Source of the DNA: Sphingobacteriales bacterium
GTDB taxonomy: Bacteria; Bacteroidota; Bacteroidia; Chitinophagales; Chitinophagaceae
Assembly (NCBI GenBank): GCA_004295245.1
Contig: REAR01000064.1
Coordinates: 1-52,331, forward strand
DNA: 52,331 bases
Direction of reading: 5' to 3'
Below are positions 20,826 through 45,031 of this stretch, in pieces. The first letter of the stretch is position 1. Each line of letters starts with the position of its first letter. The notes under the pieces were generated by a model that saw only the letters and a list, made by a program, of their open reading frames with translations, did no database searches and was not told where the DNA came from. The position numbers and the translations under genes are program-made.

Positions 20826-20848
20826 AATATCAAAAAAGTTTAATGAAA

Positions 20849-23800: not shown

Positions 23801-23953
23801 GCCTTTAACAGACACCGTGGCACCCGATAAAGGCGCTGCATTCTGATCAGTTATTTTTCCGGAAACGGTAATACTTTGTGCGTAGGAGAGGGAAGAAAGC
23901 ATCAGCAAAAAAACAAGAAGATATGCCGATGCAGCACACCAATTTTTTTTCAT
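20849..23953 (-). CDS. SusC/RagA-like TonB-dependent transporter
   Basis: 1034 residues. After the signal peptide (ending SSLSYAQ) comes a carboxypeptidase-D regulatory-like domain (VSGKITDQNAAPLSGATVSV, about 28-110). Next are the TonB box region DDVVVVGYGTRKKKDITGS and the plug (LQAMQGKVAGVDI, NNPLYVVDGIPL, IESIDVLKDASATAIFGSRG). A 22-strand barrel follows, ending in FTLGINAGF with a terminal aromatic residue. It imports oligosaccharides across the outer membrane with the SusD partner downstream. It is the first gene of a two-gene operon with the direct-repeat operator 70-86 bp upstream. Confidence 0.95.
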   Translation of the reverse strand: MKKNWCAASAYLLVFLLMLSSLSYAQSITVSGKITDQNAAPLSGATVSVKGSTNSAVTNKDGLFQLNVPSANSVLVVSFVGFSSQEIALAGRNSVAVSLTQETGTLDDVVVVGYGTRKKKDITGSVAGIGQKDIRSRPVDNPLQAMQGKVAGVDITSNERPGTVGTIRIRGERSINATNNPLYVVDGIPLTSGGIEYLNPNDIESIDVLKDASATAIFGSRGANGVVIVTTKQGKAGKVQVNFYNAVTFETVRDFAPIMTASQYIDFRRWAVYYSNPTGRPRGDAPTIANDRDIFLATSDPSSWANINKGWAGGTWDGSKVGNTDWTGLISQTGITTDNTISVSGGTKNIKAYGSFGYLNNKGTSVGQKFTRYSGKASVDIQATDWFNMGMTVNITQGTQQFGQSNLIIGSFVGTPQNSIYNSARGMFKWAVPYDSAGNRILYPGGDVAIKTVVDEQKYTEDQRTSLRAFGSVYAQLDFGKILPALKGLRYRFNFGPDFSNYTNGVYIDGLSAASSGINGASLQQSRTYSWTLDNLVYYDTEIKKHSIGVTLLQSATKYVADPVTRIVGTGIPAASQKWYELNSGVLPSTNLTINRVSALAESQLSSYMARVNYGFDDKYLLTASLRHDAASQLAEGNKSDIFPSAAFAWRISREKFMQNVGFVNDLKFRLGVGVTGNSAINPYQTLTFGVPYFYPNGGSVGAASLPTTQLGNPNLRWEKTTQYNAGIDFSLFKNRVSGAIDVYTSKTTDLLFPQQLPTVTGFLNTLTNIGQTSNKGIDININTTNMTSKNFQWTTSLNVSWQKDKLVEGAFGKNDDVLNNLFVNQPIRVIYGFAANGMWQYADTALMKKFATNGNAFTPGQVRPIDQNGDNKIDANNDRVVIGHTRPRWVVGMTNSFTYKGFELSVFIYGRLNYWFSTGGEAQTARGNQRQINYWTENNQNSEYQRPFYSVGSGDNYSASLGYQKASFLKIRNISASYNIPAESLKKLHMSSLRVYFQSANPGMLFSQIKFMDMDAVSMFSNRGFTLGINAGF

Positions 23954-24155: not shown

Positions 24156-24306
24156 AATGCTCCTTTATAGTATACCGTACAAGAGTGCGACGCAACCACT
24201 GCTGCCACTGGTTAACCATGCCGGCTACCTAACTTTTTTTTGTAAACCGGCAGCAACTGGTATAGCAGCATCGTTGCTACGCTCAGTTCATCGGCAGATT
24301 AGCTAT
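24156..24306. repeat. Complete intergenic repeat unit, copy H
   Basis: Both half-units are present. The left half has core GTGCGACGCAAC at 24185-24196, then CACTGCTGCCACTGG and ATGCCGGCTACC. The right half starts ACCGGCAGCAACTGG, then AGCAGCATCGTTGC and TTGCTACGCTCAGTTCA at 24274-24290. The interior (about 24189-24225 against 24245-24282) is itself an imperfect inverted repeat around a T-rich centre, so the whole could fold into one long hairpin. This is the best copy for defining the family. Confidence 0.85.
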
Positions 24307-24376: not shown

Positions 24377-26125
24377 TTACCATTTAAAGGGCAGGTACCA
24401 ATTATTAGGATCCATTAAACGGGCCCTTATGCCTGCAGCGTTGGGCACACCATCTTTGAGTGCTTTGCTATAAATTTTGTCGGCAATAAAAGAAGGCTCA
24501 TTTCTTCTTAAGGCTACTCTTAGCAGATCGGGCCAGCGGGTTCCTTCAAATGCATTCTCTAAAGCCCCTTCCTGTATCAACGCATTTTCAATGGTATTTA
24601 AACTATCTGCCGCAGGAACAACAATATCTGTTACATTGGCTCTTAAACGTATGCCAATATTCCGGTACCAATCGCTGCGGTAAAAAGGCACGCCGGTGTT
24701 GCCACTATTGCGTGCATCAAAGTTATAAGGAAAAGATTCGCTTAACGTGTTGTGATAATTTGTTACATCAGAACCCGGAGACGGATATGCACCTGCAAGC
24801 CCACTATTTAATAAACCCCATGCCAACCGATGTTTGCCAGCACGGTTTGCAGCTTCTGAGTAACGCATATGCAAATGTGTTTGGCGAAACAAATACCACT
24901 TGCCGTTTTTTACCAACGGATTCAGTGGCAGGTTGGTGCTATAGTTAAGGTAATTGTACAAAAACTTCATCACCACCGGCTTGCCGCCTATTTCTTTCCA
25001 GCTAAATAAACCCCTTGCGTCGTAGGGTATTGAATTGCCTTGTGCGGGGCGTTGAGTTTCATTGTTCCATTTATCAATTGCTTCATTTGAAGGTTTTAAC
25101 AGGTAGCTTCCATTTACCGGAGAAAATAGTTTAATAAGGCTGTTCTCTGGTTTAAACTTATTATCAAAAGGCAGCACCCACACCCACTCTCTGTTAAGGC
25201 TGTTAGAACCATATGGCTGTTCAAAAATAATTCTCCATCCATCATTATAAACCAGTGTAGAAGCATCGCCGGCGCGGCTATAAGTAACGTAATGGTTATG
25301 GCCACCTGCCCAGCCCAGCTTGTATTGAGAGTAGTAAGTTTCGCCCTGCACACCAATAGTTGCCTGCTCCATTACCTGGCGATACCATTCAGCAGCCTTC
25401 TGATAATTGCCTTTCCACAGGTATAAATCTCCCAACACCACTTTTTTGTTTACATAAAATTTCTCAGTGGGGTATCCATCTACGGTAATATTTAAATTGG
25501 AGCCTACCGGGTAAATATCTTTATATGGAAGTGCTGCAGTAAAATTAATAAGGCTATCTAACAAAATAGCAAACGGCAATTTAGGAAACAGTGCTGCTTC
25601 TTTTGCCTGATCTACATTTTCAAGCGCACTGGTTATATAAGGCACCTGCCCGTAATGAATACCTAATTGCAGGTATACAAAAGTGCGTAAGGCACCTATA
25701 TCTGAATAACGCTGGTTAAACTCCTGTTCATTAATACGCTTTTCGGCATACATAATTTTAAGGTGTTTTAATACGTCATTACAGTTTATTATTAACTCGT
25801 AAAAAGGCCGCGGGCTGGCATAGGGGTTAGTTTCTGAAACACTGTGTGTGCTGATTTGTTTTAAGTTTTCGTCTGCATTGTCGGTGTACTGTAACAAATC
25901 GCCCCGCAATTCATTTAAGATAATATAGCGATCGGCCAGGCCCATAAACTTGCCGTAAATACCAACTACAGCGGCATCAGCATCATACACGTTTTGGTAT
26001 GCGTTTGTAACATCCAGCTGGGTTTCTGGTTTTATATCAAATATTTTATTACAGCCTGCAATAAAAATAATTGCCTGTAAAAAAACTGTCCACTTTATAA
26101 CTGAAAGCATTTTCATACCATTCAT
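24377..26125 (-). CDS. SusD/RagB-like lipoprotein
   Basis: The ATG at 26125 gives 582 residues (MNGMKMLSVIKWTVF...) with the lipobox FIAGCNKIFDIKPETQ. The frame continues upstream to an ATG at 26179 that lies inside the SusC gene, so the internal start with an A-rich leader is preferred. SusD-type elements: NAYQNVYDADAAVVGIYGKF, RTFVYLQLGIHYGQVPYIT, GDLYLWKGNYQKAAEWYRQV (TPR) and GALENAFEGTRWPDLLRVAL. It pairs with the SusC encoded just upstream and is the last gene of the seven-gene operon. It is moderately diverged from the other two SusD proteins, suggesting a different ligand. Confidence 0.9.
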   Translation of the reverse strand: MNGMKMLSVIKWTVFLQAIIFIAGCNKIFDIKPETQLDVTNAYQNVYDADAAVVGIYGKFMGLADRYIILNELRGDLLQYTDNADENLKQISTHSVSETNPYASPRPFYELIINCNDVLKHLKIMYAEKRINEQEFNQRYSDIGALRTFVYLQLGIHYGQVPYITSALENVDQAKEAALFPKLPFAILLDSLINFTAALPYKDIYPVGSNLNITVDGYPTEKFYVNKKVVLGDLYLWKGNYQKAAEWYRQVMEQATIGVQGETYYSQYKLGWAGGHNHYVTYSRAGDASTLVYNDGWRIIFEQPYGSNSLNREWVWVLPFDNKFKPENSLIKLFSPVNGSYLLKPSNEAIDKWNNETQRPAQGNSIPYDARGLFSWKEIGGKPVVMKFLYNYLNYSTNLPLNPLVKNGKWYLFRQTHLHMRYSEAANRAGKHRLAWGLLNSGLAGAYPSPGSDVTNYHNTLSESFPYNFDARNSGNTGVPFYRSDWYRNIGIRLRANVTDIVVPAADSLNTIENALIQEGALENAFEGTRWPDLLRVALRRNEPSFIADKIYSKALKDGVPNAAGIRARLMDPNNWYLPFKW

Positions 26126-26156
26126 TTTGTATTTGTACGCACTATTATGTGGTTTT

Positions 26157-29100
26157 TTAGAAACCAATTTTAGCACCAATTGTTATTGTTTTATATAAAG
26201 GATCAAGCCCTGCATCTATACCTTGTGCAAATACACTTGGGCTGGCACTAAACTCAGGATCGTACCCCAGGTATTTGGTAAAAGTTAGCAGGTTATTACC
26301 GCCCATATACACAGAAGCGTTTTTAATAAAGCCTTCAGATTTTAATGGGATATGGTATACCACAGAAAGCGTACGCATTCTTAAGTAAGAACCGTCTTCC
26401 ATCCAGCGGCTGCTGAACCGGCCATTACCCATCGGATCTGCATAAGCAATTTTAGGCGTGCTGGTTACCTGCCCTTCTGCTCTCCATCGATTTCTTATAC
26501 TGTTTAATTGATTCTCAATACCACTACCTGCTTCAAGACGGTATCTTAAATGATTGAACACATCATTGCCTTTTGAGAAAGTAAAGAGTACATTTAATTC
26601 AATGTTCTTATAGCTGACCCGGCTGTTAAACCCTCCGTAAAAATCGGGGTTAGGGTTACCAATAACCTGACGGTCTAATTCATCAATAATTTTATCGCCA
26701 TTTAAATCGTCAAAATGCATATCTCCAGCCATAAAACTGCTGAAGGAGCCATCTGCATTTCTTTTTTGCAAACCTGCATTGGCTGCCTCAGCAGTGGTGC
26801 TGAAAACTCCTTTAGCTACATACCCGTAAAAAAGATTAGCAGGGTCTCCTTGGCGGGTTAACAACGTAGCACCTGCAAAGTTTGTAGTAAAACTGCCGCC
26901 GGGTACTGATGTTATTTTGTTTTTATAAGTGCCAATATTGGCAGCAACATCCCACTTAAAATATCGGGTATTAACCACACGAAGATTTAAACTTAACTCT
27001 ACCCCAGTATTTTGCAGGGCCCCATTATTAGTAAGAATGTTATTAAAACCTGTTACACTTGCCAATTCTTCGTACACCAACATATTGGTAGTTTTGTTTT
27101 TGTAAACATCCACACTTAGCCCTAATCGCTCGTTCCAGGTAGCTATATCAATACCAGCATTTATCTTCTGATTGGTTTCCCACTGTATTGCCGGGTTTGG
27201 AACACCATTACGCACCAACCCTTGCATACCAAGGAAATTCTGAGAAGCATAGGCTTGACGACTGGTATAGTTTCCAATATCATCATTACCGGTTTTACTT
27301 ATAGAAGCTCTTAGTTTAAGCAGGTTGAGAAATGATTTTGCCATAAATTTTTCTGAGGAAACCAACCAAGCTACTGATGCAGAAGGTAGCACTGCATAAT
27401 TATTGCCACTGATAGCAATTCCATTTGTCACTTGTTTACCAAACCTTGACGAACCGTCCATTGCAGCATTTAGAGATACAAAGAATTTTTCTTTATACCC
27501 GTATTCTACATTTGCGTAAGTATTCATCCAGTTCCACTCGCCAATACCACCACCTATTTGGCGCAAGGCATTTACGCCGTTTTGCACACTTAGTAATTCG
27601 TCTGTAGCCGAATTAAAACCAAGTGCAAAATCTTGTTCAGCCCTATTGTGCTGATAACGCAATCCTAAACGGGCAGCAATGCTGTGTTTGCTATTCCATA
27701 CTCTTGCGTATTGAATACGGGAGTCTGTGAAGACGCTAAATAATCTTTTTACTTGTGTTCCCAAACGACTGTCTGCCACTTCATTGCTTAATGTATCGTT
27801 GGCAACGCCTTTACGTGGCACAAAAATATTTTCACGAACCTTATCATAAACTATCCCAAATAGTGTATGTGCACTAAAATGTTTAGAGATATCGTATTTA
27901 AACGCAAAGGACCCATTAAAACGATAAAATTTATTAAACGCCTGCATGGTCTCAATTAAAGCCGCGGGATTACTAATACCCAAAATATCTACATCTTCAA
28001 GATTAGGAGAACGTACTCCTTTTTCATTTACTTCATGATCGGTAAAGAAAGGTGCTTTAATAAGTGCCGTAAAAAGTGGGGCCGTTTTATAAGCCAATCC
28101 CTGATCCTTTAAATTTTGCTCATTATAAGTAAAAGACAAATTGGCGGTTCCGGTAAATCTCTTTGAAAAATTAAAATCGGCGTTGAAGCGTGTATTGTAA
28201 CGCTTTAAGTCAGTATTTTTTATTACCCCTTCATTCTTCATATAACCCAGACTTAGTGCATAGGTGGCTATATTATCGCCACCTGTAACTTTCAGAAAAT
28301 AATTATTATTCATTCCCTGGTTCAGTACTTTTTTTTGCCAATCTGTAGTATTATGATAGCGGAAGTATTCTGCGGAAGTAACATCGTCATTCATATAGGG
28401 TTGGGCTGCAATTTCAGAAGCCGTCATTCCTTTACTTTGCAACATTTCAGCAAGATAGGTTCTGTAATCTGTAGCATTCATAACAGATAAAGTAGCCGGA
28501 GCCTGGTTAAACCCAGTATGGATCCCAAAATCTATTTTTGTGGCCTGCTGCTTAGCTTTTGATGTAGTTATGAGAATAGCACCATTAGCACCTTTTGTTC
28601 CATAAATAGACGCTGCATCTTTCAATACAGTTACATTATCTATGTCTTGTGTATTTAATAATGCCAGCGGGTTTGTATAATTGTTTGCAATAATACTTTC
28701 ACCATAATCATTCACATCGTAGATCATTCCATCAACAACTATAAGCGGCTTATTGGTGCCAAATAAAGAATTATAACCTCTTAAAAAAAGGTTTGCCCCT
28801 GTACCCGGAGCACCTGAGCGACGAATGCTGTTTAACCCTGCTACTTGCCCTTGTAAAAGACCATCAATTGTTTCGTCGGGTCTTTTCCACTCGCCGTTTG
28901 CAGAATAGTTACCTATTGCAGCAGCAACATTTCTTTGTGCAATTTTTTGAAAAGGCATACTTACTGATTGCATAAAGCTAGAAGCCTCATCATCTAATAG
29001 TGCAATAGAAATATCTGTTCTTCCTTTCAAAGAGACCTGTCTGCTTGCGTAGCCGTCTCCGGTAATATTAATATCTGTTAAATAAGATGGCACAGTTAAC

Positions 29101-29345
29101 TTGAATGTCCCATTATCATCTGTAATAGCCGCAGAAAAATTTACAACAGCCACCCTTATGCCTGCTAACGGTTTTCCGGTGGCTGCATCTTTTATAACTC
29201 CTGTAAGAGTAGTTTTGCTTTGATGCTCTTTAGCTGCCACACCCCCGGATTTATTTTGCTGAGCGCATGCTGTTGTGACGGCAACACCAGCAGCTAAAAT
29301 AACTACAAGAAATTTTAATTTATATTTCATATTAGTAATAGCCAT
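26157..29345 (-). CDS. SusC/RagA-like TonB-dependent transporter
   Basis: 1062 residues; a second possible start is ATG 29330, which begins the signal peptide directly (MKYKLKFLVVILAAGVAV). The domains are a carboxypeptidase regulatory-like domain (TGVIKDAATGKPLAGIRVAV), a plug (IDGLLQGQVAGLNSIRRSG, NKPLIVVDGMIYDVNDYGE, VTVLKDAASIYGTKGANG) and a barrel ending LYKTITIGAKIGF. The canonical VVVVGYG TonB-box stretch is not evident; VSMPFQKIAQRN occupies its place. This is unusual but seen in some Bacteroidota transporters. It lies 21 bp after a FAS1 lipoprotein gene and before its SusD partner. Confidence 0.93.
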   Translation of the reverse strand: MAITNMKYKLKFLVVILAAGVAVTTACAQQNKSGGVAAKEHQSKTTLTGVIKDAATGKPLAGIRVAVVNFSAAITDDNGTFKLTVPSYLTDINITGDGYASRQVSLKGRTDISIALLDDEASSFMQSVSMPFQKIAQRNVAAAIGNYSANGEWKRPDETIDGLLQGQVAGLNSIRRSGAPGTGANLFLRGYNSLFGTNKPLIVVDGMIYDVNDYGESIIANNYTNPLALLNTQDIDNVTVLKDAASIYGTKGANGAILITTSKAKQQATKIDFGIHTGFNQAPATLSVMNATDYRTYLAEMLQSKGMTASEIAAQPYMNDDVTSAEYFRYHNTTDWQKKVLNQGMNNNYFLKVTGGDNIATYALSLGYMKNEGVIKNTDLKRYNTRFNADFNFSKRFTGTANLSFTYNEQNLKDQGLAYKTAPLFTALIKAPFFTDHEVNEKGVRSPNLEDVDILGISNPAALIETMQAFNKFYRFNGSFAFKYDISKHFSAHTLFGIVYDKVRENIFVPRKGVANDTLSNEVADSRLGTQVKRLFSVFTDSRIQYARVWNSKHSIAARLGLRYQHNRAEQDFALGFNSATDELLSVQNGVNALRQIGGGIGEWNWMNTYANVEYGYKEKFFVSLNAAMDGSSRFGKQVTNGIAISGNNYAVLPSASVAWLVSSEKFMAKSFLNLLKLRASISKTGNDDIGNYTSRQAYASQNFLGMQGLVRNGVPNPAIQWETNQKINAGIDIATWNERLGLSVDVYKNKTTNMLVYEELASVTGFNNILTNNGALQNTGVELSLNLRVVNTRYFKWDVAANIGTYKNKITSVPGGSFTTNFAGATLLTRQGDPANLFYGYVAKGVFSTTAEAANAGLQKRNADGSFSSFMAGDMHFDDLNGDKIIDELDRQVIGNPNPDFYGGFNSRVSYKNIELNVLFTFSKGNDVFNHLRYRLEAGSGIENQLNSIRNRWRAEGQVTSTPKIAYADPMGNGRFSSRWMEDGSYLRMRTLSVVYHIPLKSEGFIKNASVYMGGNNLLTFTKYLGYDPEFSASPSVFAQGIDAGLDPLYKTITIGAKIGF

Positions 29346-29366
29346 GTAATTTCTTTTAATTTTTTT

Positions 29367-30815
29367 CTACAAAACAGGCACCAGCCGTATATAATCACAC
29401 ACAAGCGGATTTACTGCTGCTGTTGTGCTGTTGGCTGCTGTCAGATAAATATTAAATTGTGGTTGATACTGTGTTAATGTAAATTCACCTATATATACTT
29501 CATTGTAATTATTTAGTGCTACTGTAGTATATCCAAATGTTGTGGAAGCAGCAGCGCCTATTCCTAATTTTTGTGTAAATGTAGCCGTCTGAAAATCGTT
29601 TAATGCCACCCAATAAGCTTTATACTTTAGCGTCGGCATTTCAGGTAGTTGGTAGCGTAGATTAAAAAGTGCCACCCCGTGCCCTAATACTAAAACATCT
29701 CTGAAATCTTTTGAAGTAGCTGTGTTGAACCGATCTCTGAAATACGTATTGCCTCTTCTGTCTACACTGGAAGCAGTATAATTCTCAGCTTGTACCAATG
29801 TTTCTAAAAACTTATGTTTGGGTTGTACATCTACTTTACCCATAATATAAACAATGCCATTACTTGTTTTTATTGTATTAACTATTGACAACTTTTCTAC
29901 TGGCACTTTTGTTCCAAATTTCGATAAAACAGTATCTTGTATTGACGTTAGGGGGAACGATCCTTCTATAGATAAATCTTTTACAACAGCCCAACTGGCA
30001 GCCTTAGTAGTACTATCTGTATTACTTGTGGCAAAAAAAGGTTTATACTTATTTACTTCAGCATCCCAGGCTGCGTCTTGCAATAAAAAGATGGTGTACT
30101 GTTTTTTTTCATCACGCAGATCATGTACTTTATTCCAGAACAAATTTGTAAAAACAGAATCTGTACCGGCTTGATAAATTGGGTCACCTGTATTTGGGTC
30201 AATTCCTACTATTACAGCATGTGAAGTATCAAAAACCTTTTGAAACAATGATAACATATATGCTCTTTGTTTAACTGGAGCATTGATGCTGTTACTTATA
30301 TACTCCCAACAATTATCAAGTGCCGTAACCTTTCTATCAACAATATGTAAAACCCCATTAGACGCATATAAATCCGCTTTAGTAATTGCAGCATCTTCAA
30401 TTTTACCACTGGCAACATTATTATATTTACCATTCATCATTTGTATTCTTCCAGGTGTAGATAGACTATTACTATAATACAATTGCTGTGAAATATGGTT
30501 TCCCACAAAAAGGGTAAGCTTTAACGGGTTTTTAATTATCGCGGTATCCAGATTTTCAAGCTCTTTATTAGTAGGGGCAAATACGGTGAAATTTTTTGAT
30601 GAGGATAATACTCTATCATACCCCGATAACATTAAGAGTCCGCGAAAACTGCTAAGCTCTGGCGTAGCTGTAATTAAATCAAAAACATTGTTTGCCAAAA
30701 CACTTTCCTTAACAGCATTGTGGTCTGTAGTAGCCTTTTTACAAGCAAAAAATCCAAACAACAAGCAACTAACTGTAAAAACGAATAAAAGACTTCTATT
30801 GCGCATATTATTCAA
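29367..30815 (-). CDS. Fasciclin (FAS1) domain lipoprotein with C-terminal beta-sandwich
   Basis: 482 residues with a lipoprotein signal (lipobox GFFACKKATTD). The first FAS1 domain (about 40-165) has both conserved boxes, FTVFAPTNKELENL and GVLHIVDRKV. A second, degenerate FAS1 (about 170-325) has YTIFLLQDAAW and GIVYIMGKVD. Residues about 335-482 are different: a beta-rich tail (LVQAENYTASSVDRRG ... CDYIRLVPVL) whose ending is typical of carbohydrate-binding galactose-binding-like folds. The gene sits between a second FAS1 gene and a SusC gene, so a role as a surface glycan-binding protein is plausible but inferred. Confidence 0.85.
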   Translation of the reverse strand: MNNMRNRSLLFVFTVSCLLFGFFACKKATTDHNAVKESVLANNVFDLITATPELSSFRGLLMLSGYDRVLSSSKNFTVFAPTNKELENLDTAIIKNPLKLTLFVGNHISQQLYYSNSLSTPGRIQMMNGKYNNVASGKIEDAAITKADLYASNGVLHIVDRKVTALDNCWEYISNSINAPVKQRAYMLSLFQKVFDTSHAVIVGIDPNTGDPIYQAGTDSVFTNLFWNKVHDLRDEKKQYTIFLLQDAAWDAEVNKYKPFFATSNTDSTTKAASWAVVKDLSIEGSFPLTSIQDTVLSKFGTKVPVEKLSIVNTIKTSNGIVYIMGKVDVQPKHKFLETLVQAENYTASSVDRRGNTYFRDRFNTATSKDFRDVLVLGHGVALFNLRYQLPEMPTLKYKAYWVALNDFQTATFTQKLGIGAAASTTFGYTTVALNNYNEVYIGEFTLTQYQPQFNIYLTAANSTTAAVNPLVCDYIRLVPVL

Positions 30816-30830
30816 ATATTACTCTTGTAT

Positions 30831-32519
30831 TTAAAAAAATATTTTTGTTCCATCGGGTTTAAACCTAGGTAATACCTGGTTATCATCAACCGGTATAAAA
30901 TGGATCATATCCAGATTGTTATTATTTTGAGTACCTGTCAGTGGTGTAATCCTTATAATCTGCTGCTGGGTAGTGGTAAAATCAATGGTTCCCACTAATC
31001 TTGATGCAAATAAATTGGTTGTATTTTCAGTATATCGTTTCCAACCAATGGCTTCTAATTCTGCATCAGTTCCGGTAGGTCTGTTTTCAGTAAAATTCAT
31101 TGTTCTTTGCATTAAAACTTTATTTACTTCCACTTGACAAAGCATATTAGAACTGCTGGATTGTTTTTGAGCACGATAACATACCCAAACTTTGTAACGG
31201 CCTTTTATTATTGGAGGTGTTTTCATTTCCCACCATATTGGCCGATTGGGTAACCCCATTGGAAGCATATTCACATCATTATTAACTGCATAGTTTGTTA
31301 TTGAACTGGTAGCAGAATATAAATAAGATAAAACATTGGTACCCGCCAAAGGCCCCCAACCCCAGTAATGATCTTTAATTAGATTGTCTGCTTCAGTAGC
31401 TCTTGTAAAATTGTAATTACCTCTTTTATAATAAGCTGGTAATTTCATGATCTCTGGAAAAGTTGAAACATCCCAAAATAGGGCTGTTGGTTTACGGAAT
31501 TTAACCATATAATGCGCTGTTGCATCATGCCATACACCATTTGAAGCGGCATTATCACTTTTTTGGCGATTCAATAGAATACCCTTTTCCAATACTCCAT
31601 TAAACTCGTCTTCATTTATTACGACATTTTGATCTATTAGTTTAATACTAATAACCTCTTGCGGCAATAAAGTAACGTGTGTTGCAACAGTTATAATATC
31701 TCCCAAAAATTTGATCCCGGATGATATATGGTAAGCAACATACATATTCAAACTATCTGTAGCTGATGACGGATTACCTGTTTGTGAATATTTACCTTTT
31801 AACGATGCATAGGTAGTAAATCCACTGTCTGCTAAAGCCTTATTACTTTCTGCAAAAACAGAAAGCCATCGATTAGATGTATCTGGATCAACCGTATTAA
31901 GCTTTGAAAAAAATCCAGTCTCCTTTAGTGCCTGCACAAAAAGCGAATATTCTGGGTTTTCTTCTAATTGCTGAGCGATAGTTTTAGTAGCAGGAATAAG
32001 AACATGATCTATGACATGAATGAGTCCATTACCAACTTTCAAATTTGATTGGAGTACTTTTGCCTGCCGATTAACAATGTAATTTGAAATACCCTGTTCA
32101 AAAGATACAGCGGTTACCAGAAACTGACCATACATGGTAATTACGGGGAGTTTGCCATCTGTAAAAGAACCTGAGTATACGGTATCTTCAAGTAAATGCA
32201 GTCTTACCATATCTTTTAAAATATTGATATCTGCAGCTTCTACTGTTGCAGCCCCTATTTTTTGGAGATATGTTTTAACACCAGTATTAGTAGGTGCAAA
32301 ACAAGTATAAGACCCATATGCATTTAGAAAAGAGGCAGTTCCTGTACGTTCCAGAATTTGCCGGAATAATGAAAATGAATCCGGGCGTTTATCCAGATAG
32401 CCCACAATGTTTACGTCTTCTGTAGTAGTCTCACGAATATTAATTTTTTTACAAGCAGGCAATTGAACTGCTATGTACCCGCTGAGTAGTAGCACAAATA
32501 ATAATTTTATCTTTTTCAT
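30831..32519 (-). CDS. Fasciclin (FAS1) domain lipoprotein with C-terminal beta-sandwich
   Basis: 562 residues; the lipobox QLPACKKINI puts the Cys at about residue 23. The first FAS1 domain (about 45-175) is clear: YTCFAPTNTGVKTYL and GLIHVIDHVLIPATKT. A weaker FAS1 follows (about 180-345; YSLFVQALKETGFFSKL). The last 200 residues look like a carbohydrate-binding beta-sandwich: GRYKVWVCYRAQKQ, CQVEVNKVLMQRTMNF and NNLDMIHFIPVDD. It shares architecture with its neighbour at 29367-30815 but the sequences are far apart. Spacing is 12 bp from the SusD gene upstream and 15 bp to the next FAS1 gene. Confidence 0.85.
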   Translation of the reverse strand: MKKIKLLFVLLLSGYIAVQLPACKKINIRETTTEDVNIVGYLDKRPDSFSLFRQILERTGTASFLNAYGSYTCFAPTNTGVKTYLQKIGAATVEAADINILKDMVRLHLLEDTVYSGSFTDGKLPVITMYGQFLVTAVSFEQGISNYIVNRQAKVLQSNLKVGNGLIHVIDHVLIPATKTIAQQLEENPEYSLFVQALKETGFFSKLNTVDPDTSNRWLSVFAESNKALADSGFTTYASLKGKYSQTGNPSSATDSLNMYVAYHISSGIKFLGDIITVATHVTLLPQEVISIKLIDQNVVINEDEFNGVLEKGILLNRQKSDNAASNGVWHDATAHYMVKFRKPTALFWDVSTFPEIMKLPAYYKRGNYNFTRATEADNLIKDHYWGWGPLAGTNVLSYLYSATSSITNYAVNNDVNMLPMGLPNRPIWWEMKTPPIIKGRYKVWVCYRAQKQSSSSNMLCQVEVNKVLMQRTMNFTENRPTGTDAELEAIGWKRYTENTTNLFASRLVGTIDFTTTQQQIIRITPLTGTQNNNNLDMIHFIPVDDNQVLPRFKPDGTKIFF

Positions 32520-32531
32520 ATAATGCCTGTG

Positions 32532-34079
32532 TTATTTGTAAAATGGGTTTTGAACTAATAATTTATTGGTCTGCAATTCGTATAAATAGATCGGAAAGTA
32601 GTGACTGTTTTTATCTTTGATTTTTGCCTGTGCTGATTGCTGCAGATTTGGCGGCACACTTTGAGCTACCATATTTAACAATATGCTTAGTCTTTCGTAA
32701 TTATTACGTTTTGCATTTCGTAATGCATCGTACCAGCGTTTGCCTTCAAAACAAAACTCACGTGAACGTTCCTGCAAAATAAAATCTTGAATCCCTATTT
32801 TATCAGAAGGAGCAGGATTAATATCAGTTGCTGCAAGCGCATTCGCTCTTTTACGTATCGCGTAAATAAGACTTAATGCATCTGAGCCACGTCCCAGCTC
32901 ATTCAAAGCTTCTGCCTTCATTAATAAAATATCAGCATACCTGTAAAAAAACCAATGTGCGTAACTCTGATCAAACGTCCTCAGCGCTGTATTAGTAGCT
33001 CCAACATATTTCCATATAGTTGATGTAGCAGCTCTTACAGACCCGGCGTCTCCACGGATATCATAATTCTGGTCATTTGTAAAATCAACGGTAAATAACT
33101 GATCCATTATCTCAGGGAAAGCAATCCATCTTCTTACAGATATGCTAGAAGAAAACATATTAAAGTAAGGGTTCAACCGTTGCGCATCAAACTGCAATTC
33201 AAAAATACCCTCATTTGAATTACCATTATAGTACAAAGTATTAAACCAATTTTCATTATAGGTGATGATTCCTCCATTATCTGTTGCCCCACGTATTAAG
33301 CCAAATTTTTGAGAGTTAATTATTTTATCGCATGCTACCACACAATCAGCGTATTTTTCAGCCCAGAGGTAAACATCCGCTAAAATAGCGTTAACAGTAT
33401 AAACCGTAACCCTGCCTTTATCTGAAGCGGCATCACCATAAGTAGTTACAGCTTTCGCTTCAGCCGATTTGAGATCCGCAATTATTTGGTTAATGATTTC
33501 TTCCTGTGTGGCCTTTTTGATTGGCGTAATATTCTCGTCGCTTAGGGTAGCATCTAATTTCAGCGGTGCTTCGCCAAAACTTCTTACCAAGTAGAAATAC
33601 ATCAACGCTCTTATTGTTAATGCTTCACTCAAATAATTATCTAATTGCACTTTCGTAAATGTGTTATCAAAATTTACTACTTCAGGTGCCTTTTCTATTA
33701 GTGTATTGCAATAATTAATCGTTCTGTAAAAAGGCCTCCAATTGGTATTTACATTCGTAGGCTGTGTATTCATGTTTATAAGTTCCAAATCATCGCTACT
33801 TGTAAATGTTGCAGGAGATATATTATCTGCCCTGCATTCTCCCCAAACAAATAACTGCTCAGACAAAGAAGGTATATAACCAACGGTTCCATAGTTTCCG
33901 GTTGACCCGTCTAACATGGAAGCGTAAATTCCAATGGCGGAAGCCTTCACCTGCTCCTTGGTTTTCCAAAACTCTTCTTTTACTATGCCATCCTGCGGCT
34001 TTAAGCTCAGCCACTTCTTGCAACTGAAGGCTATTGCAATCAGCATAAAAACAAAACTATATTGAATTATCTTTTTCAT
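32532..34079 (-). CDS. SusD/RagB-like lipoprotein
   Basis: 515 residues with lipobox AIAFSCKKWLSLKPQDG. SusD features include FWKTKEQVKASAIGIYASM, ALTIRALMYFYLVRSFGEAP, ILADVYLWAEKYADCVVACD (TPR), RYADILLMKAEALNELGRG and QERSREFCFEGKRWYDALR. This gene follows the 1088-residue SusC by 21 bp and precedes two FAS1 genes. It is the most canonical SusD of the three in the window. Confidence 0.95.
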   Translation of the reverse strand: MKKIIQYSFVFMLIAIAFSCKKWLSLKPQDGIVKEEFWKTKEQVKASAIGIYASMLDGSTGNYGTVGYIPSLSEQLFVWGECRADNISPATFTSSDDLELINMNTQPTNVNTNWRPFYRTINYCNTLIEKAPEVVNFDNTFTKVQLDNYLSEALTIRALMYFYLVRSFGEAPLKLDATLSDENITPIKKATQEEIINQIIADLKSAEAKAVTTYGDAASDKGRVTVYTVNAILADVYLWAEKYADCVVACDKIINSQKFGLIRGATDNGGIITYNENWFNTLYYNGNSNEGIFELQFDAQRLNPYFNMFSSSISVRRWIAFPEIMDQLFTVDFTNDQNYDIRGDAGSVRAATSTIWKYVGATNTALRTFDQSYAHWFFYRYADILLMKAEALNELGRGSDALSLIYAIRKRANALAATDINPAPSDKIGIQDFILQERSREFCFEGKRWYDALRNAKRNNYERLSILLNMVAQSVPPNLQQSAQAKIKDKNSHYFPIYLYELQTNKLLVQNPFYK

Positions 34080-34100
34080 GTATTTGCTTTAACATTTAAA

Positions 34101-37100
34101 TTAAAATCCTGCTACCAATCCAATCGTAACAACTCTTGAAGGAGGAGTCATTGAATAATCGTAGGCTGTTCTGAAAGGATCTGCTCCCCTTGTTGTAATC
34201 TCTGGATCCTGTCCGGTATATTTAGTAAACGTTAATAAATTTTCACCAGTAATATATGCGCTTAATGTCTTCATTTTAAGCTTTGCCAAAACCTTCTTGC
34301 TAAATGTATATCTTGCTGTAATTGTTCTAAACCTTACATATGATGCGTCTTCCACATACCTATCACTGCCTAACCAGTTGTATCCTCCATTCAGCAATGC
34401 TCTCGGTATGTCTGTAACATCTCCTTCCTTTCTCCAGCGTCTTAAAACAGCCGTGCTTTGATTATCGAAGTAATACATATTTGACGTAGTCATTTTGGTG
34501 CCGTTTACTACATCATAACCCCACCTGAAACTAAAAAAAGTACTAAGCTTTAAATTTTTCCATGTTAGTGATGGACCAAAACCTCCAGATAATTTAGGAT
34601 TACTATTACCCAGGTAAACCACATCCATATAATTAATATTACCATCATTATTAATGTCCTCATACATAGCATCGCCAGGTTGAAACACATAATCTGTTGT
34701 TGGATAATTAAACCGGGTGTAAACTACCTGACCATTTGGACCAACTATTGGCTTACCATCTGCACCCGTTGCAATTGTGGAATTTTTATCTTTGTAAACT
34801 CCTTTATACTTATAGCCGTAGAAAGAGCCAAAGGGATTATCAATTTGTAATAATCTGAGGTATTCGCCATTTTTAGTTACATCACCACGACTATTTGGAT
34901 AAAATTCCGAGATATCTCTGATTACATTTTCATTGGCAGAAATATTAAAATCAAAACCTATCGTCAGATTTTTTTTCTTAACGGGTTGAGTCCATACTGC
35001 AATTTCCCAGCCCTGGTTATCCATGGTTCCTACATTCATGAATAAAGAATTAAAGCCAGTATAAGAAGCAATTTGTAATCCATCAAAGAACATATCTTTT
35101 GTACGGTTACGATAAATTTCTGCATCTACACGAAAACGTCCGTTAAACAAGCTCAGATTGGCTCCAATATTAGCTCCGTGCAAGGTTTGCCATTTCAGAT
35201 TTTTCAATTCCATTCTTGATGGGTATACCGCAGACTGACCTAAATAAGTATAATTATACGTATTGTATGTATTATAAAACAGGTAGTCATAGCGGGGAAC
35301 TTCTCCGGTAATACCGTAACTGGCTCTGAAACTCAAGTCATCTATTGCTTTAACTTTATTCAGGAAATTTTCTCCAGAAACCCTCCACCTTAGTGACACT
35401 GAGGGAAATAATCCATATTTATAATTAGGACCAAACCGTGAATTACCATCGCCCCTTAATGTGGCACTGATAATATATTTATCGTTATATCCATACTGGG
35501 TACTTATAATAGCGCCAATAGATCTTGTTTGTGAAATTCCGGATGCAGCCCGAGATTCTGAATTCTGGGTCCGGGAAGCAATAGAGGGATCTACCAATAA
35601 TGAAGAAGCTGTATTAGATGTGATTACTTCCTGATATACCGCTTTGTAATCGTTGGTTAATAGTGTTACGAATCCAAGAAAATTGTGCTTTTCATTTTTC
35701 AATTGTGGTGTATAAACCAAACTAGATTTTGTGCCTACACTAAAAACGTCAATATCTCCATCATAAGCCCTGTTTACTACTGTCTCCGTATTGGGTCTTC
35801 CGGTTGCAATCTGCGGCAAAAAGCTGTTATTTTTTGTATTATTAATATCAAATTGAATATCAAACTGCGCTTTTAGTACTTTTTTAATAATATCATAATC
35901 CAGCTGAAACCTGGGAACAATTCGTTCACCTATTACCGCATATTTCGCTTTATCTGCCATTGCCACAGGGTTATATACCCTGCTATACTGCCCTTGTACA
36001 TTTGAAGCTGGAGAGAAATAATTAGTAGTTAGATTACCCAACTCATCATACTCAAACACACTCATATTGGGCATTTTAATATAAGCCATACCTCGTATAG
36101 AAGCTTCCCCGCTTGCAGCACTCGATCCTAAATAACTGCGACTTTGATTGGTGTGTGTATAGGCAATGCTTGTAAAGAACTTAATCTTATCAGATACAGT
36201 ATAATCAAGATTAATGCGAGTGTTGATACGTTGAAGATCGGTACCCAATGTAATGCCGGTTTGATCAAACATACCTACAGAAGCAAAATATTTAGCCTTT
36301 TCGCCTCCACCAGTAAGACTCACCGTATGATCCTGCAAATTTCCTGTTCTTGAAATAGCATCTATCCAGTTTGTATTATTACTATAATTATAATACCAAT
36401 AGGGGTCGTTGGGATCGTAATTGAACTCCCTAATAGCAGTAGTATTTAAAGTACTACCCAAGCGATTCATAAAACCTTCCGGAATTAATGTTGAATACTG
36501 ATCTCCGTTTAAAAGAGGAATGGCCTTAGGTACAAAAGAAAGCGAGCCTTTGAATGTATAGTTTACTGTTGGCTTACCAATACTTCCTCTTTTTGTAGTA
36601 ATTACTAAAACACCATTTGCCGCACGACTTCCCCAAATTGCAGTTGCAGCAGCATCCTTCAATACGGTGATGTCTTTTATATCAGAAGGAGAAATATTCA
36701 ATAACTGTGCATACCCCTGCTCATCTGCTGTACCAAAATTAAAATCACCGGGTATCTCAGTATCATAGGGCATGCCATCCAAAATAATTAAAGGAATACC
36801 AGTTGAATTGATTGAAGACACTCCTCTGATACGAATATTCATTGCAGCACCCGGATCGCCGCTAGTAGCGGTTATATCTACACCGCTTAAACGACCTTGC
36901 AACGCCTGATCAATACTGGCGGCTTGCATTTCTTCTACGTCTTTGGCATTTATTCTGGCTACTGCTGTTGTAAGGTTTCGCTCATTAATATTCACCATAC
37001 CGTTGCTCGACTGAGGCCTTGATACCACAATAACTTCTCCTAAATCTGTCTGGCTGTCTTCTAACGAAAAATTAATGGTAGTTCTGCCACTCATATTTTG

Positions 37101-37367
37101 AGAAATACTTCTGTATCCAATATTTGTTACAGAAATCTTATTCTTCCCGTTTACATTTTTCAAAACAAAATTTCCTTCAATATCTGTTGATGTGCCTTTT
37201 ATAATACGTCCATCAGTATCTACTTCAGAAACAGAAGCACCCTGAACAGGTTTCCCTTTTTTATCTGTCACCTTTCCTTTTACCAGTATCTGTGCGGTAG
37301 TAGCATGGCCTACTATTACAAACACCAGAAAGGTGGCTAAAAATTTAAATATATGCTTGTACATCAT
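34101..37367 (-). CDS. SusC/RagA-like TonB-dependent transporter
   Basis: 1088 residues. The signal peptide ends near GHATTAQ. The regulatory domain KGKVTDKKGKPVQGASVSEV is followed by the TonB-box region LGEVIVVSRPQ and the plug (IDQALQGRLSGVDITATSG, GIPLIILDGMPYD, ITVLKDAAATAIWGSRAANG). The beta-barrel ends VVTIGLVAGF. It is the largest transporter here, second gene of the seven-gene operon, 20 bp after a four-FAS1 lipoprotein and 21 bp before its SusD. Strong family match; substrate unknown. Confidence 0.95.
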   Translation of the reverse strand: MMYKHIFKFLATFLVFVIVGHATTAQILVKGKVTDKKGKPVQGASVSEVDTDGRIIKGTSTDIEGNFVLKNVNGKNKISVTNIGYRSISQNMSGRTTINFSLEDSQTDLGEVIVVSRPQSSNGMVNINERNLTTAVARINAKDVEEMQAASIDQALQGRLSGVDITATSGDPGAAMNIRIRGVSSINSTGIPLIILDGMPYDTEIPGDFNFGTADEQGYAQLLNISPSDIKDITVLKDAAATAIWGSRAANGVLVITTKRGSIGKPTVNYTFKGSLSFVPKAIPLLNGDQYSTLIPEGFMNRLGSTLNTTAIREFNYDPNDPYWYYNYSNNTNWIDAISRTGNLQDHTVSLTGGGEKAKYFASVGMFDQTGITLGTDLQRINTRINLDYTVSDKIKFFTSIAYTHTNQSRSYLGSSAASGEASIRGMAYIKMPNMSVFEYDELGNLTTNYFSPASNVQGQYSRVYNPVAMADKAKYAVIGERIVPRFQLDYDIIKKVLKAQFDIQFDINNTKNNSFLPQIATGRPNTETVVNRAYDGDIDVFSVGTKSSLVYTPQLKNEKHNFLGFVTLLTNDYKAVYQEVITSNTASSLLVDPSIASRTQNSESRAASGISQTRSIGAIISTQYGYNDKYIISATLRGDGNSRFGPNYKYGLFPSVSLRWRVSGENFLNKVKAIDDLSFRASYGITGEVPRYDYLFYNTYNTYNYTYLGQSAVYPSRMELKNLKWQTLHGANIGANLSLFNGRFRVDAEIYRNRTKDMFFDGLQIASYTGFNSLFMNVGTMDNQGWEIAVWTQPVKKKNLTIGFDFNISANENVIRDISEFYPNSRGDVTKNGEYLRLLQIDNPFGSFYGYKYKGVYKDKNSTIATGADGKPIVGPNGQVVYTRFNYPTTDYVFQPGDAMYEDINNDGNINYMDVVYLGNSNPKLSGGFGPSLTWKNLKLSTFFSFRWGYDVVNGTKMTTSNMYYFDNQSTAVLRRWRKEGDVTDIPRALLNGGYNWLGSDRYVEDASYVRFRTITARYTFSKKVLAKLKMKTLSAYITGENLLTFTKYTGQDPEITTRGADPFRTAYDYSMTPPSRVVTIGLVAGF

Positions 37368-37387
37368 GTATCTGGTTTGAAATTTCG

Positions 37388-39619
37388 TTAGTTGGTTTTA
37401 AGATAATTATCCAGTAAGTGTATTACACAGCGGTTGCTCAGATTATTACTCTTGGCAACTATGATATTGGCAGAGCGGCTGGTCATATCATTTACCACCA
37501 TATTATTGGGCGTACTGTTATTAATAAATATGGTAGATGGATCTCCGTTTGGAAACTTGTAAAGGGTTTCAATCGTTCCACTCTCCTGCCCGTCTGTTGC
37601 CAATGTTTTCTTATTAAGAATATGATAGTAAATAAAATTGGCTACCTTCTCTCTGTCTGCCAGTAATGTGGGATTAAACAAAGGCACTTTGTTAGGCGCT
37701 GTACCGGTACCCGGTAAAAGACCTGCATTTACCGCTGCCCTGATTGCGTTATTATCTGGTATAAAGAAGGTATAAAAAGTACCCGATGCAACCTGTTGAA
37801 TTTCGCCCGTTGAAAAATTATAAATAGTTGCATTTCTTAAATACTGCCAAAAGAAATTATAATCTGAAGTAGTGGGAGTACCTAATGCTTCAATATGCTT
37901 TCCAATGGTTTTTTCGCTGAATTCTAAAATTTTATCTAAATAATAAACCGTTCCGTTTTTAGCGGTTTTTTTATTCAGTACATTGGCCACATTGGGCTTA
38001 TCATTATTGCCGGCAGCAACAACCGTAGTGCCACTATACTTTACAAACTCTCCAGAATACGTTAATGCCACTCCTGGTGCAGTAATACTTGTTATATCGC
38101 GGCCCGGCACCACATGCATATTTAATATGCGTTGCAAACGAACCAAGGCAGATGTACCTGTTAAATGTGCCCCACCACCGGGCGGTATATAACGCCACTG
38201 CTCATTTAAATTATTACTCACAGTAGGATCTACATAATATCCGGCAGCATTAAATGCAGCGTTACTTATTAAAAATAAAGTGTACTTCTGATTAATATTA
38301 GAAACCTGAAATTTAAGATCCAAATTCAACAGGCTGGTCATCATCGAATAATTAGGATCTAAATAAGCTTTGCCATATACACTGCTAAACACATTGGCAT
38401 CCTGCACCTTATTAGTGCCATAAAAAATTCCATTACTCAATATCTTTTTATCCAGCACATTTGTATTTACGTCGAAACGAGCTTCCTCTCCTACGGAATT
38501 AAACGTTGAGCTGAACTTACTGGGCCATACTGCAGTACGCCACATATGTGCATTTACAAAATCGTATATAACATTAATAGGCAATGCATCCAAGCTTGTA
38601 TAATGCTCTAATAAAACTGTATTAATATAATTGGTTAGTGTGGCATTTTCTGGTACAAACATGCTATAGGTATCAGACTGCCCGTCATTATCCTGCAGCT
38701 TTAAAAAATTTTCGTTGTTTGGTGAAAAAGCCAGACTTGCATTATATACTTTGGTAAAAACATCTGCTGTGCTGCCGGTAATATTTTTATAGTTCTGTGT
38801 AACTGTTGCATTGTACACATACTGCACCACATACTTCTCCAGAATTTTTTTAAACTCGCTGTATTGCGGGCTGTTGCCAATATACTGATCAAGGCTAGGC
38901 AATGCCGTAACCACTTTATTAATTACATGTATCACTCCATTTTCTGCAGGCAGGTCCCTTTCTGTAACATTTGCATCCACTACGTTAAACCCTTTAAATG
39001 TAGTGGCAGGATAGAAATAGTTATAGTCGTATGCAGATAATGATTTGCCCGTCACATAACCTGTTTCAAAAATGGGCATGTATTTATTATTATTATCAGC
39101 ATCTACATAAAAAAAGGTTCCAAAAGTATTGCGATTAGAAGCAATAGCTTTTATAGAAGCCCCCGCTGTATTTACCGCATCGTAAATGCCGGTATAACTG
39201 GCAGTGCGGCGTTTAAACGACGCATTCTCCACCCAACCCAGGTTACTCTGATAATCAGCAATACGCTCTTGCTTAAATGCATTATACACCAGGCAATAGG
39301 TTACTATCTTTCTGCAGGCAGCAGAATCTAATGCATCAATACCACTTAAGCCGTTGGCCGTAAAATATACCTGAAACGCTGAATCGTGCGGCGCAAACAG
39401 CGTCCAGTAACCTGCGGCACTTAACGTATTTTTATACCCTGCTTTATCTATTGCTGTAAGCAGAGTTTTAAAATTACCTTTTGCAGCCAATGTTTGATAA
39501 ATAGGTGGCTCCAGATTTACAGGGCGGCCATAATATTCATCCAGCGCTTTTTTACGGCACTGCACGGCTAATAGCGAGAACAGTAACACCAGCACTATGG
39601 ATGCTTTAGTTCTAAACAT
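37388..39619 (-). CDS. Four-domain fasciclin (FAS1) lipoprotein
   Basis: 743 residues; the lipobox LLAVQCRKKALDEYY puts the Cys at about residue 21. Four FAS1 units can be read from their paired boxes: WTLFAPHDSAF/GVIHVINKVV (about 40-240), YSMFVPENATL/GIFYGTNKV (about 250-405), YTLFLISNAAF/GTVYYLDKIL (about 420-570) and FYTFFIPDNNAI/CVIHLLDNYL (about 575-743). FAS1 domains are adhesion modules; their role in glycan use is not established. It is the first gene of the operon that also encodes two SusC/SusD pairs, so it is probably exposed on the surface next to them. The mapped operator is about 380 bp upstream. Confidence 0.88.
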   Translation of the reverse strand: MFRTKASIVLVLLFSLLAVQCRKKALDEYYGRPVNLEPPIYQTLAAKGNFKTLLTAIDKAGYKNTLSAAGYWTLFAPHDSAFQVYFTANGLSGIDALDSAACRKIVTYCLVYNAFKQERIADYQSNLGWVENASFKRRTASYTGIYDAVNTAGASIKAIASNRNTFGTFFYVDADNNNKYMPIFETGYVTGKSLSAYDYNYFYPATTFKGFNVVDANVTERDLPAENGVIHVINKVVTALPSLDQYIGNSPQYSEFKKILEKYVVQYVYNATVTQNYKNITGSTADVFTKVYNASLAFSPNNENFLKLQDNDGQSDTYSMFVPENATLTNYINTVLLEHYTSLDALPINVIYDFVNAHMWRTAVWPSKFSSTFNSVGEEARFDVNTNVLDKKILSNGIFYGTNKVQDANVFSSVYGKAYLDPNYSMMTSLLNLDLKFQVSNINQKYTLFLISNAAFNAAGYYVDPTVSNNLNEQWRYIPPGGGAHLTGTSALVRLQRILNMHVVPGRDITSITAPGVALTYSGEFVKYSGTTVVAAGNNDKPNVANVLNKKTAKNGTVYYLDKILEFSEKTIGKHIEALGTPTTSDYNFFWQYLRNATIYNFSTGEIQQVASGTFYTFFIPDNNAIRAAVNAGLLPGTGTAPNKVPLFNPTLLADREKVANFIYYHILNKKTLATDGQESGTIETLYKFPNGDPSTIFINNSTPNNMVVNDMTSRSANIIVAKSNNLSNRCVIHLLDNYLKTN

Positions 39620-39854: not shown

Positions 39855-39915
39855 GCCGTTGAACGGATTGCGACGCAACGATGTATAATAGCGTTACTGC
39901 CGCTGGTACTCCAAA
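39855..39915. repeat. Intergenic repeat, copy I, left half
   Basis: TTGCGACGCAAC at 39868-39879 (one change from the core), followed by a degenerate tail with ACTGCCGCTGGTACTCC. It is the left half of a unit whose right half is about 120 bp further on. Confidence 0.7.
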
Positions 39916-40001
39916 AAAACAACTGCACAACTGGTAACCCTCAACCTCAAAAAACCAATACAACCATCAGTTACTAAATTGCTGCTTATTTGCAATACAA
40001 C

Positions 40002-40018
40002 TATCCTGAAGCATCCTG
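40002..40018 (-). promoter_or_regulatory. Direct-repeat operator upstream of the FAS1/SusCD operon
   Basis: TATCCTG at 40002-40008 and CATCCTG at 40012-40018 (coding strand CAGGATG-CTT-CAGGATA, 10-bp period), the third copy of the motif found before 23953 and 18599. A -7 box at the expected 19-20 bp spacing is not convincing here. The predicted leader to the start at 39619 would be about 350 nt and contains half a repeat element. Confidence 0.58.
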
Positions 40019-40030
40019 TTATAATAATTA

Positions 40031-40105
40031 AGTTACCGGCTTTTACCACTCCGGTTGGGCATCGTTGCCACGCTCGGTTCAGCAGCAATACATAGGTTGG
40101 GCAAT
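40031..40105. repeat. Intergenic repeat, copy I, right half
   Basis: GTTACCGGCTTTTACCA followed by GGGCATCGTTGCCACGCTC and GGTTCAGCAGC, the second-arm type also seen in copies F, H and J. The operator at 40002-40018 lies between the two halves. Confidence 0.7.
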
Positions 40106-42834: not shown

Positions 42835-42872
42835 ATAGCGTAAAAAAATTAAAATTCAATTTACAAATATTC

Positions 42873-44993: not shown

Positions 44994-45031
44994 ATAAAAA
45001 GAAATTTTTTGTTATTAACTGTTGTGCTTAT

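Follow-up and report, generated by a model that had tools for sequence, protein, structure and literature searches.

Positions 24377 to 39619 of contig REAR01000064.1 of a Sphingobacteriales bacterium (family Chitinophagaceae; assembly GCA_004295245.1) carry an operon of seven minus-strand genes, running from 39619 down to 24377 in the order FAS_A-SusC1-SusD1-FAS_B-FAS_C-SusC2-SusD2. The products are three proteins with fasciclin (FAS1) domains and two different SusC/SusD pairs (SusCD). We analyzed the operon within the whole stretch of 52,331 nucleotides (the window), which is one entire contig of a 3.37-Mb genome (269 contigs, 96% complete), and compared it with related loci in other genomes. 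We consider it likely that the seven genes make up one cell-surface capture-and-import unit for fragments of the rhamnose-rich pectin rhamnogalacturonan I (RG-I).

Gene content, conservation, and lipoprotein-like signals of the module

All seven genes were present at 69 of 80 loci from a scan of named genomes with FAS_B, and their order and strand were identical in 69 of these 69, which makes the arrangement more than chance. The remaining 11 loci end at a contig edge, as judged from the contig ranges. No further open reading frame (ORF) of at least 120 aa lay between the genes in 67 of the 69 complete loci, the other two (L116 and L124) having genes in pieces; in another two (L114 and L161), the contig ends within FAS_A. 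The median intergenic gaps across loci, counted from the first possible start codons, were 14 to 48 bp. The hosts included Chitinophaga, Niastella, Lacibacter, Pedobacter, Mucilaginibacter, Arcicella, Belliella, Pontibacter, and Rufibacter, as well as metagenome-assembled genomes (MAGs) labelled Prolixibacteraceae and Bacteroidales. Recurrence in other genomes ruled out a local oddity of one MAG. An earlier note on this DNA had proposed that FAS1 genes accompany SusCD as part of an under-described type of glycan-capture system; for these FAS1 genes the association was seen in 80 of the 80 kept loci, within the reach of the contigs. The module was also found in MAG records labelled Williamsia sp. 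(Actinomycetota; L123), which is probably mis-binned or mislabelled, and Sphingobacterium thalpophilum (L106).

A FAS_B search of 60 genomes of the same family matched 37 of them. Most of the matches were short ones to FAS1; full-length relatives came from 10 genomes and 11 loci, the window among them. The module is present in all ten family loci that were fetched, within the limits of each stretch. FAS_A, SusC1, FAS_B, and SusC2 share one distribution over the 60 genomes, being present in an identical set of 10 (thresholds, E up to 1e-150 for SusC1 and SusC2 and up to 1e-20 for FAS_A; at most 12 to 13 candidates scored per genome in the SusC searches), with the module divided over two contigs in one of them (G048). 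The only extra was a 33%-identical SusC1 relative in another genome (G022), where it is part of the sialidase-linked module described below. Since some family genomes gave more than 100 first-look SusC candidates, this lack of stray orthologues deserves attention. In a sample of the phylum, full-length FAS_B was found in 7 of 296 genomes, the genome of the window included, with eight matches and a complete module at all eight; the distribution across the phylum is patchy. The pairwise distances of the seven proteins correlated with Spearman coefficients of 0.56 to 0.82 over 64 of the 69 complete loci (L116, L124, and three loci with a protein below 85% of the median length were excluded), and 0 of 200 permutations gave as high a value for each of the 21 pairs, although species relatedness alone would also yield such a correlation.

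In the window, the operon starts with FAS_A (37388 to 39619), a 743-aa lipoprotein of FAS1 repeats, followed by SusC1 (34101 to 37367), a SusC/RagA TonB-dependent outer-membrane transporter, and the SusD-family lipoprotein SusD1 (32532 to 34079). Next come FAS_B (30831 to 32519) and FAS_C (29367 to 30815), the second SusC/RagA transporter SusC2 (26157 to 29345; 28% identity to SusC1), and SusD2 (24377 to 26179), a divergent SusD-family lipoprotein whose ATG start is possibly at 26125. According to the coordinates, the intergenic gaps are, in operon order, 20, 21, 12, 15, and 21 bp, and SusD2 either overlaps SusC2 by 23 bp, if it starts at its TTG, or follows it after 31 bp, if it starts at the ATG of residue 19. 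The gene order and strand given in the earlier note were borne out by the ORF coordinates and by the family assignments of all seven proteins. Its terminator after the operon fared less well: a hairpin with a T-run does lie 3' of SusD2 (24336 to 24317, minus strand), but matches of this kind, taken together, are not enriched in the window over shuffles (15 versus 13.8, standard deviation 4.0). The Bacteroidota-type promoter pattern had one match in the window, distant from the operon, with 5.0 expected by chance.

The fasciclin family PF02469 scored above its cut-off of 22 bits in FAS_A, FAS_B, and FAS_C (95.7, 78.9, and 66.4 bits, respectively), and TIGR04056 identified both SusC1 (733.8 bits) and SusC2 (684 bits; cut-off, 368.25) as SusC/RagA barrels. 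Each of these adjoins a gene for a SusD lid lipoprotein, clear for SusD1 (SusD_RagB, 8.1e-31) and barely passing for SusD2 (23.9 bits versus a cut-off of 23.1). In FAS_A, hidden Markov models (HMMs) supported three FAS1 domains, at about residues 49 to 237 (38909 to 39475; interrupted by an insert and matched as two Pfam stretches in one frame), 423 to 565 (37925 to 38353), and 608 to 740 (37400 to 37798). A count of four FAS1 domains had been claimed before; the segment of residues 236 to 422 has FAS1-like motifs by eye but scored about 0 bits. No non-FAS1 domain was detected in FAS_A with Pfam. FAS_B and FAS_C align over their whole length in a profile comparison (E 1e-18), whereas pairwise BLAST shows little past the first FAS1 domain. 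As had been stated, the operon has no carbohydrate-active enzyme (CAZyme): a Pfam search of the seven proteins found no CAZyme or glycoside hydrolase (GH) domain, and the CAZymes sit in the adjoining gene run.

By a simple rule that gives rough counts, a lipobox-like Cys was present in 70 of 71 FAS_A, 75 of 80 FAS_B, 80 of 80 FAS_C, 77 of 79 SusD1, and 73 of 73 SusD2 sequences. Cys21 of FAS_A is invariant in 10 of 10 sequences and Cys23 of FAS_B in 55. The commonest residue at position +3 is Lys in all five lipoproteins, and that at +2 is Lys in four of them and Arg in FAS_A. The lipoprotein nature proposed for the FAS1 proteins thus finds support in signals resembling those of SusD across the 80 loci. 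Since SusD is surface exposed in known systems, these SusD-like residues after the Cys suggest, by analogy, the same location for FAS_A, FAS_B, and FAS_C. Being lipoproteins encoded in a SusCD operon, they resemble surface glycan-binding proteins (SGBPs) in the SusE/F position.

Predicted C-terminal domains and the pectin setting

Structure models of FAS_B and FAS_C (pLDDT, 88.6 and 92.6; alignments of 55 and 52 sequences, i.e., the window plus 54 and 51, respectively, of the 80 loci) both showed two FAS1 domains followed by a beta-sandwich. The models were compared with the PDB by Foldseek, and the matches were realigned in a second-look step that gave Z and rmsd values. The FAS1 pair of FAS_B (residues 36 to 340; 31500 to 32414) matched periostin/TGFBIp with a Z of 21.8 and an rmsd of 7.9 over 278 residues, the two domains being differently angled; in the FAS_C pair (residues 36 to 334; 29814 to 30710), the second FAS1 domain was recognized from the structure and had a weak HMM score. 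The C-terminal part of FAS_C (residues 337 to 482; 29370 to 29807) matched carbohydrate-binding modules (CBMs) of three families, namely, CBM6 (2cdp; Z, 13.1; rmsd, 2.5 over 122), CBM36 (7ay3; Z, 12.9), and CBM35 (3zm8; Z, 12.6). Only one FAS1 protein was among the 26 FAS_C matches ranked 25 to 50, the higher ranks being matches to the FAS1 part; judging from titles, we take the other 25 to be CBMs or enzymes aligned at their CBM. For FAS_B (residues 343 to 547; 30879 to 31493), the best matches were a xanthan lyase region (6f2p; Z, 13.5) and MiXBM (7ehg; Z, 13.3; rmsd, 2.2 over 130), which we take to be a xanthan-binding module, followed by CBM4, CBM6, and CBM35 at Z 9.5 to 10.6 (9.5 to 9.8 for CBM6 and CBM35). 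The predicted structure of FAS_C thus has the beta-sandwich fold of CBM6/35/36, and that of FAS_B has it more weakly. The sole recurring additional Pfam match was DUF5108, in 33 of the 55 FAS_B members, the FAS_B of the window falling below the cut-off.

Four columns were invariant in the FAS_C alignment, E344, Y388, D474, and Y475. In CBM6, CBM35, and CBM36 an N-terminal Glu and a C-terminal Asp hold a structural calcium, and the sequence pattern of E344 and D474 fits such a site. A role of the FAS1 lipoproteins as glycan binders, put forward in the earlier note, therefore stays plausible in a modified form: on the models, the likely glycan-binding part is the CBM-like C-terminal domain of FAS_B and FAS_C and not FAS1 by itself.

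The operon is flanked by genes from which the locus reads as one for RG-I. Downstream, on the same strand, a SusC3/SusD3 pair (18870 to 23953) heads the next, CAZyme-bearing gene run, whose pectin/RG-I enzyme genes (2693 to 18656) encode GH88/105, a GH51-type alpha-L-arabinofuranosidase, GH95, a GDSL esterase, GH43, polysaccharide lyase (PL) family PL22-like proteins (clear at 9019 to 10260, weak at 2693 to 4081), GH127, and GH106. Upstream, also on the minus strand, lie genes for L-rhamnose catabolism (40193 to 46252): an FGGY kinase, an isomerase-like gene, an aldolase/dehydrogenase fusion, and RhaT, of which Pfam names only RhaT, the other three Rha names coming from the context. Pectin-enzyme and rhamnose genes recur at other loci, in agreement with the pectin setting proposed earlier. 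We collected 87 same-strand neighbors, of which 42 were labelled by profiles from the window and 45 were not, and scanned 30 of the latter with Pfam. These comprised three PL11 rhamnogalacturonan lyases, two PL9-type proteins, three GH2, two GH115, one each of GH35, GH31, GH97, a DUF4450/rhamnosidase-like protein, and a SASA esterase, two Ig/PKD proteins, and six hybrid two-component regulators, the kind that controls polysaccharide utilization loci (PULs); 7 of the 30 had no Pfam match.

The following mechanism is proposed. FAS_B and FAS_C would be SGBPs with a lipid anchor, a C-terminal CBM-like tip that would catch RG-I chains, and, between the two, a pair of FAS1 domains serving as a stalk for spacing or protein contact. 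FAS_A, with FAS1 repeats only, may be a scaffold or docking protein that spaces or docks the parts. Enzymes of the adjoining gene run would cut the polymer, trim the chain, and finish the oligosaccharides, which would enter through two TonB-dependent channels, SusC1D1 and SusC2D2, and the rhamnose released would feed the adjacent rhamnose pathway.

A sialidase-linked sister module and the competing readings

Two further loci, L080 and L180, have a six-gene layout, FAS_A-SusC-SusD-FAS_B-SusC-SusD, without FAS_C. Both loci have sialidase-type BNR proteins next to them; beside L080 lie also NanM, an MFS transporter, and an aldolase of the DHDPS/NanA type. The FAS proteins of this sister module match FAS_A and FAS_B, respectively, by profile score; the profile alignment of its FAS_B spans the whole length, with HMMER giving about 1 bit over the CBM-like part. 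Few genomes have the sister module: in overlapping samples, a full-length version turned up in 2 of 395 genomes of the phylum and in 1 of 395 of the class, so its conservation rests on the two loci.

In a SusC tree that took in 24 other SusCs (22 hand-picked from 30 that were fetched and two from loci in this study), SusC1 grouped with the first SusC of the sister module (100/99) and SusC2 with the second (100/99), and the two groups were sisters (95/95). An earlier tree with different outgroups agreed. The matching groups indicate that the SusC pair arose in a single duplication older than the change of the likely substrate and has been retained since. A recent duplication giving SusC1 and SusC2 was rejected, as the split is older than the sialidase-linked module. 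In the SusD tree, the support for the D1 group was only 87/78. Since the double layout was kept across two likely substrates, there may be a structural reason for the pair and not merely two substrates. The idea of an under-described type of system thus holds as regards a widely conserved module, and it changes in that the SusC pair stems from an old duplication and the layout is shared with a sialidase-linked module. Inherited together, SusC1D1 and SusC2D2 probably work as a pair and possibly as one mixed complex. We put forward tentatively, as a serious possibility, a hetero-utilisome, a single complex of two different SusCD pairs with FAS1 scaffolds and FAS1-CBM arms, re-tooled between pectin and sialic acid.

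PULs with tandem SusC/SusD pairs exist, e.g., xylan loci, and their extra lipoproteins are not known to be FAS1 proteins. They share with the module two pairs in one gene run; the module differs by a FAS1 gene before each pair and by a layout fixed across families. The fold of the C-terminal domains is shared with CBM6, CBM35, and CBM36, but here it is joined to FAS1, not to a CAZyme, and goes unmatched by Pfam. The FAS1 fold of FAS_B and FAS_C is that of periostin and TGFBIp, extracellular matrix proteins that are not known to have a CBM-like domain or a transporter context. Among characterized systems, the levan and dextran utilisomes of Bacteroides thetaiotaomicron come closest. The one for levan is an octamer (SusC2D2, i.e., two copies of each, two GH, and two SGBP), and its SGBP has a lipidated N terminus and a C-terminal levan-binding domain, a likeness to FAS_B and FAS_C; both utilisomes have, as does the module, a SusCD core with co-encoded surface glycan-binding lipoproteins, and both are dimers of one SusC/SusD type with SGBP and GH (PMC7618045, in excerpt). 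The module has instead two different SusCD pairs, three FAS1 lipoproteins, and no GH in the operon.

The one-unit reading competes with a simpler one, in which SusC1D1 and SusC2D2 are separate transporters for two classes of pectin fragments, merely co-transcribed, FAS_A working with the first pair and FAS_B and FAS_C with the second, with no joint machine. The succession FAS1-SusC-SusD and FAS1-FAS1-SusC-SusD is the pattern of a tandem duplication, the two SusC groups are indeed sisters, and the utilisomes named above rest, in the excerpts of their description, on one SusC type (PMC7618045). However, neither half was found alone among the 60 family genomes, and the pairing outlived the likely substrate change at L080 and L180, which independent importers would not need; separate transporters are thus possible but on the doubtful side. 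That the cargo is not RG-I but another rhamnose- or uronate-rich glycan of plant or microbial origin, the pectin genes being incidental, would agree with the neighbors varying by locus (GH115, GH31, GH97, GH35, and GH2 beside PL11, PL9, GH106, and GH105) and with the best stand-alone CBM match of FAS_B, the presumably xanthan-binding MiXBM. We find it unlikely, given that rhamnose catabolism, GH106, GH88/105, PL22-like, PL11, and GDSL esterase genes recur next to the module in several Bacteroidota families. It is more unlikely still that the FAS1 proteins are adhesins fixing the cell to the plant wall (e.g., fasciclin-like arabinogalactan proteins) and not importer parts. What FAS1 is mainly known for, according to the available part of PMC6032426, is its presence in proteins of adhesion and of the matrix, and FAS_A lacks a detected non-FAS1 domain; on the other hand, the FAS1 genes are fixed within a transporter operon, FAS_B and FAS_C bear a predicted CBM-like fold, a similar layout stands next to sialidases, a setting in which plant walls would hardly be the target, and the same excerpt cautions that to assume adhesion may be misleading in bacteria (PMC6032426).

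Several results weigh against the reading of the seven genes as one RG-I capture-and-import unit. In the SusD tree, SusD2 was not recovered with its counterpart in the sister module (it fell with one group in 22% of bootstrap trees). The scan that yielded the 80 loci kept the best 80 of at least 371 FAS_B relatives and favors close kin, and one family locus (L078) has FAS_B placed ahead of FAS_A. The lipobox rule also flags 26 of 78 SusC1 and 20 of 78 SusC2 proteins, and it picked a wrong Cys in some sequences, so that its counts are rough. A Pfam CBM match (E 0.01) was found in 0 of 52 FAS_C and 0 of 55 FAS_B members, for which reason we term the domains of these 107 members CBM-like and do not assign them to CBM6, CBM35, or CBM36; the FAS_C profile, run against PDB sequences, hit FAS1 proteins only (26 rows). 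Two Cry toxins (Z, 9.6 and 9.8) tie with the CBM4, CBM6, and CBM35 matches of FAS_B, whose top matches alone are well separated from them, Cry2Aa and hinokiresinol synthase are also among the structure matches of FAS_C, and a CBM-like fold alone is no proof of binding. As to the substrate, 75 of the 80 loci have a flanking gene, and a pectin or rhamnose label occurred in the flanks of 35 of these, a count made with window-derived profiles and without control SusCD loci, and some neighbors (GH31, GH97, and GH115) are not pectin specific.

Other FAS1 contexts, neighboring features, and significance

FAS1 proteins as general PUL proteins were rejected, with PF02469 present in 49 of the 60 family genomes and the module in 10. 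We inspected 30 other stretches, chosen and not random, with other or divergent FAS1 matches (20, L180 to L199, and ten, L080 to L089). In the first set, a SusC-like gene was present in L180 (the sister module), L187, L188, L184 (several genes off), and L198 (a 168-aa fragment at 36 bits), and in the second in L080 to L084, L086, and L088, in several other arrangements and at only 61 to 84 bits in five. In L187 and L188, a gene judged by eye to be a LacI-type regulator precedes SusC, SusD, and a 480- to 485-aa FAS1-like protein, which is the third gene of a single pair; the genes flanking them resemble, by eye and from their sequence starts, those for amino-sugar use. L081, L082, and L083 are alike, with a SusC-like gene (61 to 76 bits), several lipoprotein-like genes (two to three of them for FAS1 proteins), another gene of about 1,090 aa, a protein of about 725 aa, and two small genes, which by length and position could be sigma and FecR-like. 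L181 to L183 have a 470- to 487-aa FAS1 protein in neighborhoods alike in gene lengths and without SusC-like genes, which suggests that multi-FAS1 proteins of Bacteroidota have a second role outside PULs.

Elsewhere in the window, two overlapping minus-strand ORFs (1757 to 2125 and 1974 to 2513), the second matching part of a GH43 model (E 2e-9), may be a broken or mis-sequenced GH43 gene at 1757 to 2513. A short repeat, GTTGCGTCGCA, has nine copies in the window, mostly intergenic (at 24186 to 24284, 39869 to 40075, 618, 2620, 6889, 8990, 11256, 18755, and 45112). Its partner, GAGCGTRGCAACGATGC, has 17 exact copies in the genome, and the reversed control has none. At 39870 to 40073, the repeat and its partner make up an imperfect inverted repeat (14 nt, 86%). 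The short repeat looks like an intergenic element of the REP/MITE type (repetitive extragenic palindrome/miniature inverted-repeat transposable element).

FAS1 has been noted in PULs in passing before. A Gramella portivictoriae PUL for a cellulose- or hemicellulose-like substrate includes, according to the legend to Fig. 6, a FAS1 domain protein together with SusD, and the part of the source at hand describes no FAS1 role and no paired module (PMC4891872). In an excerpt of PMC10199937, a FAS1 structure paper is cited beside a highly transcribed "...domain protein," and in PMC12611786 a SusCDE complex is described, with "fasciclin" and "FAS1" absent from the text available. Among the matches listed in a search of open-access titles and abstract starts, which took in neither subscription journals nor PULDB, no description of a FAS1/double-SusCD module was found.

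On the reading proposed here, FAS1 domains in Bacteroidota would have a defined role in glycan import that can be put to the test, and two of its protein families have a predicted CBM-like domain missed by Pfam. It offers a natural case of two different SusCs seemingly obliged to cooperate, which would bear on why SusCD transporters dimerize. If the hetero-utilisome is real, it would be a class old enough to have been re-tooled between glycans such as pectin and sialic acid. Present in many Bacteroidota, including soil and plant-associated genera, the module could matter for pectin consumption there.

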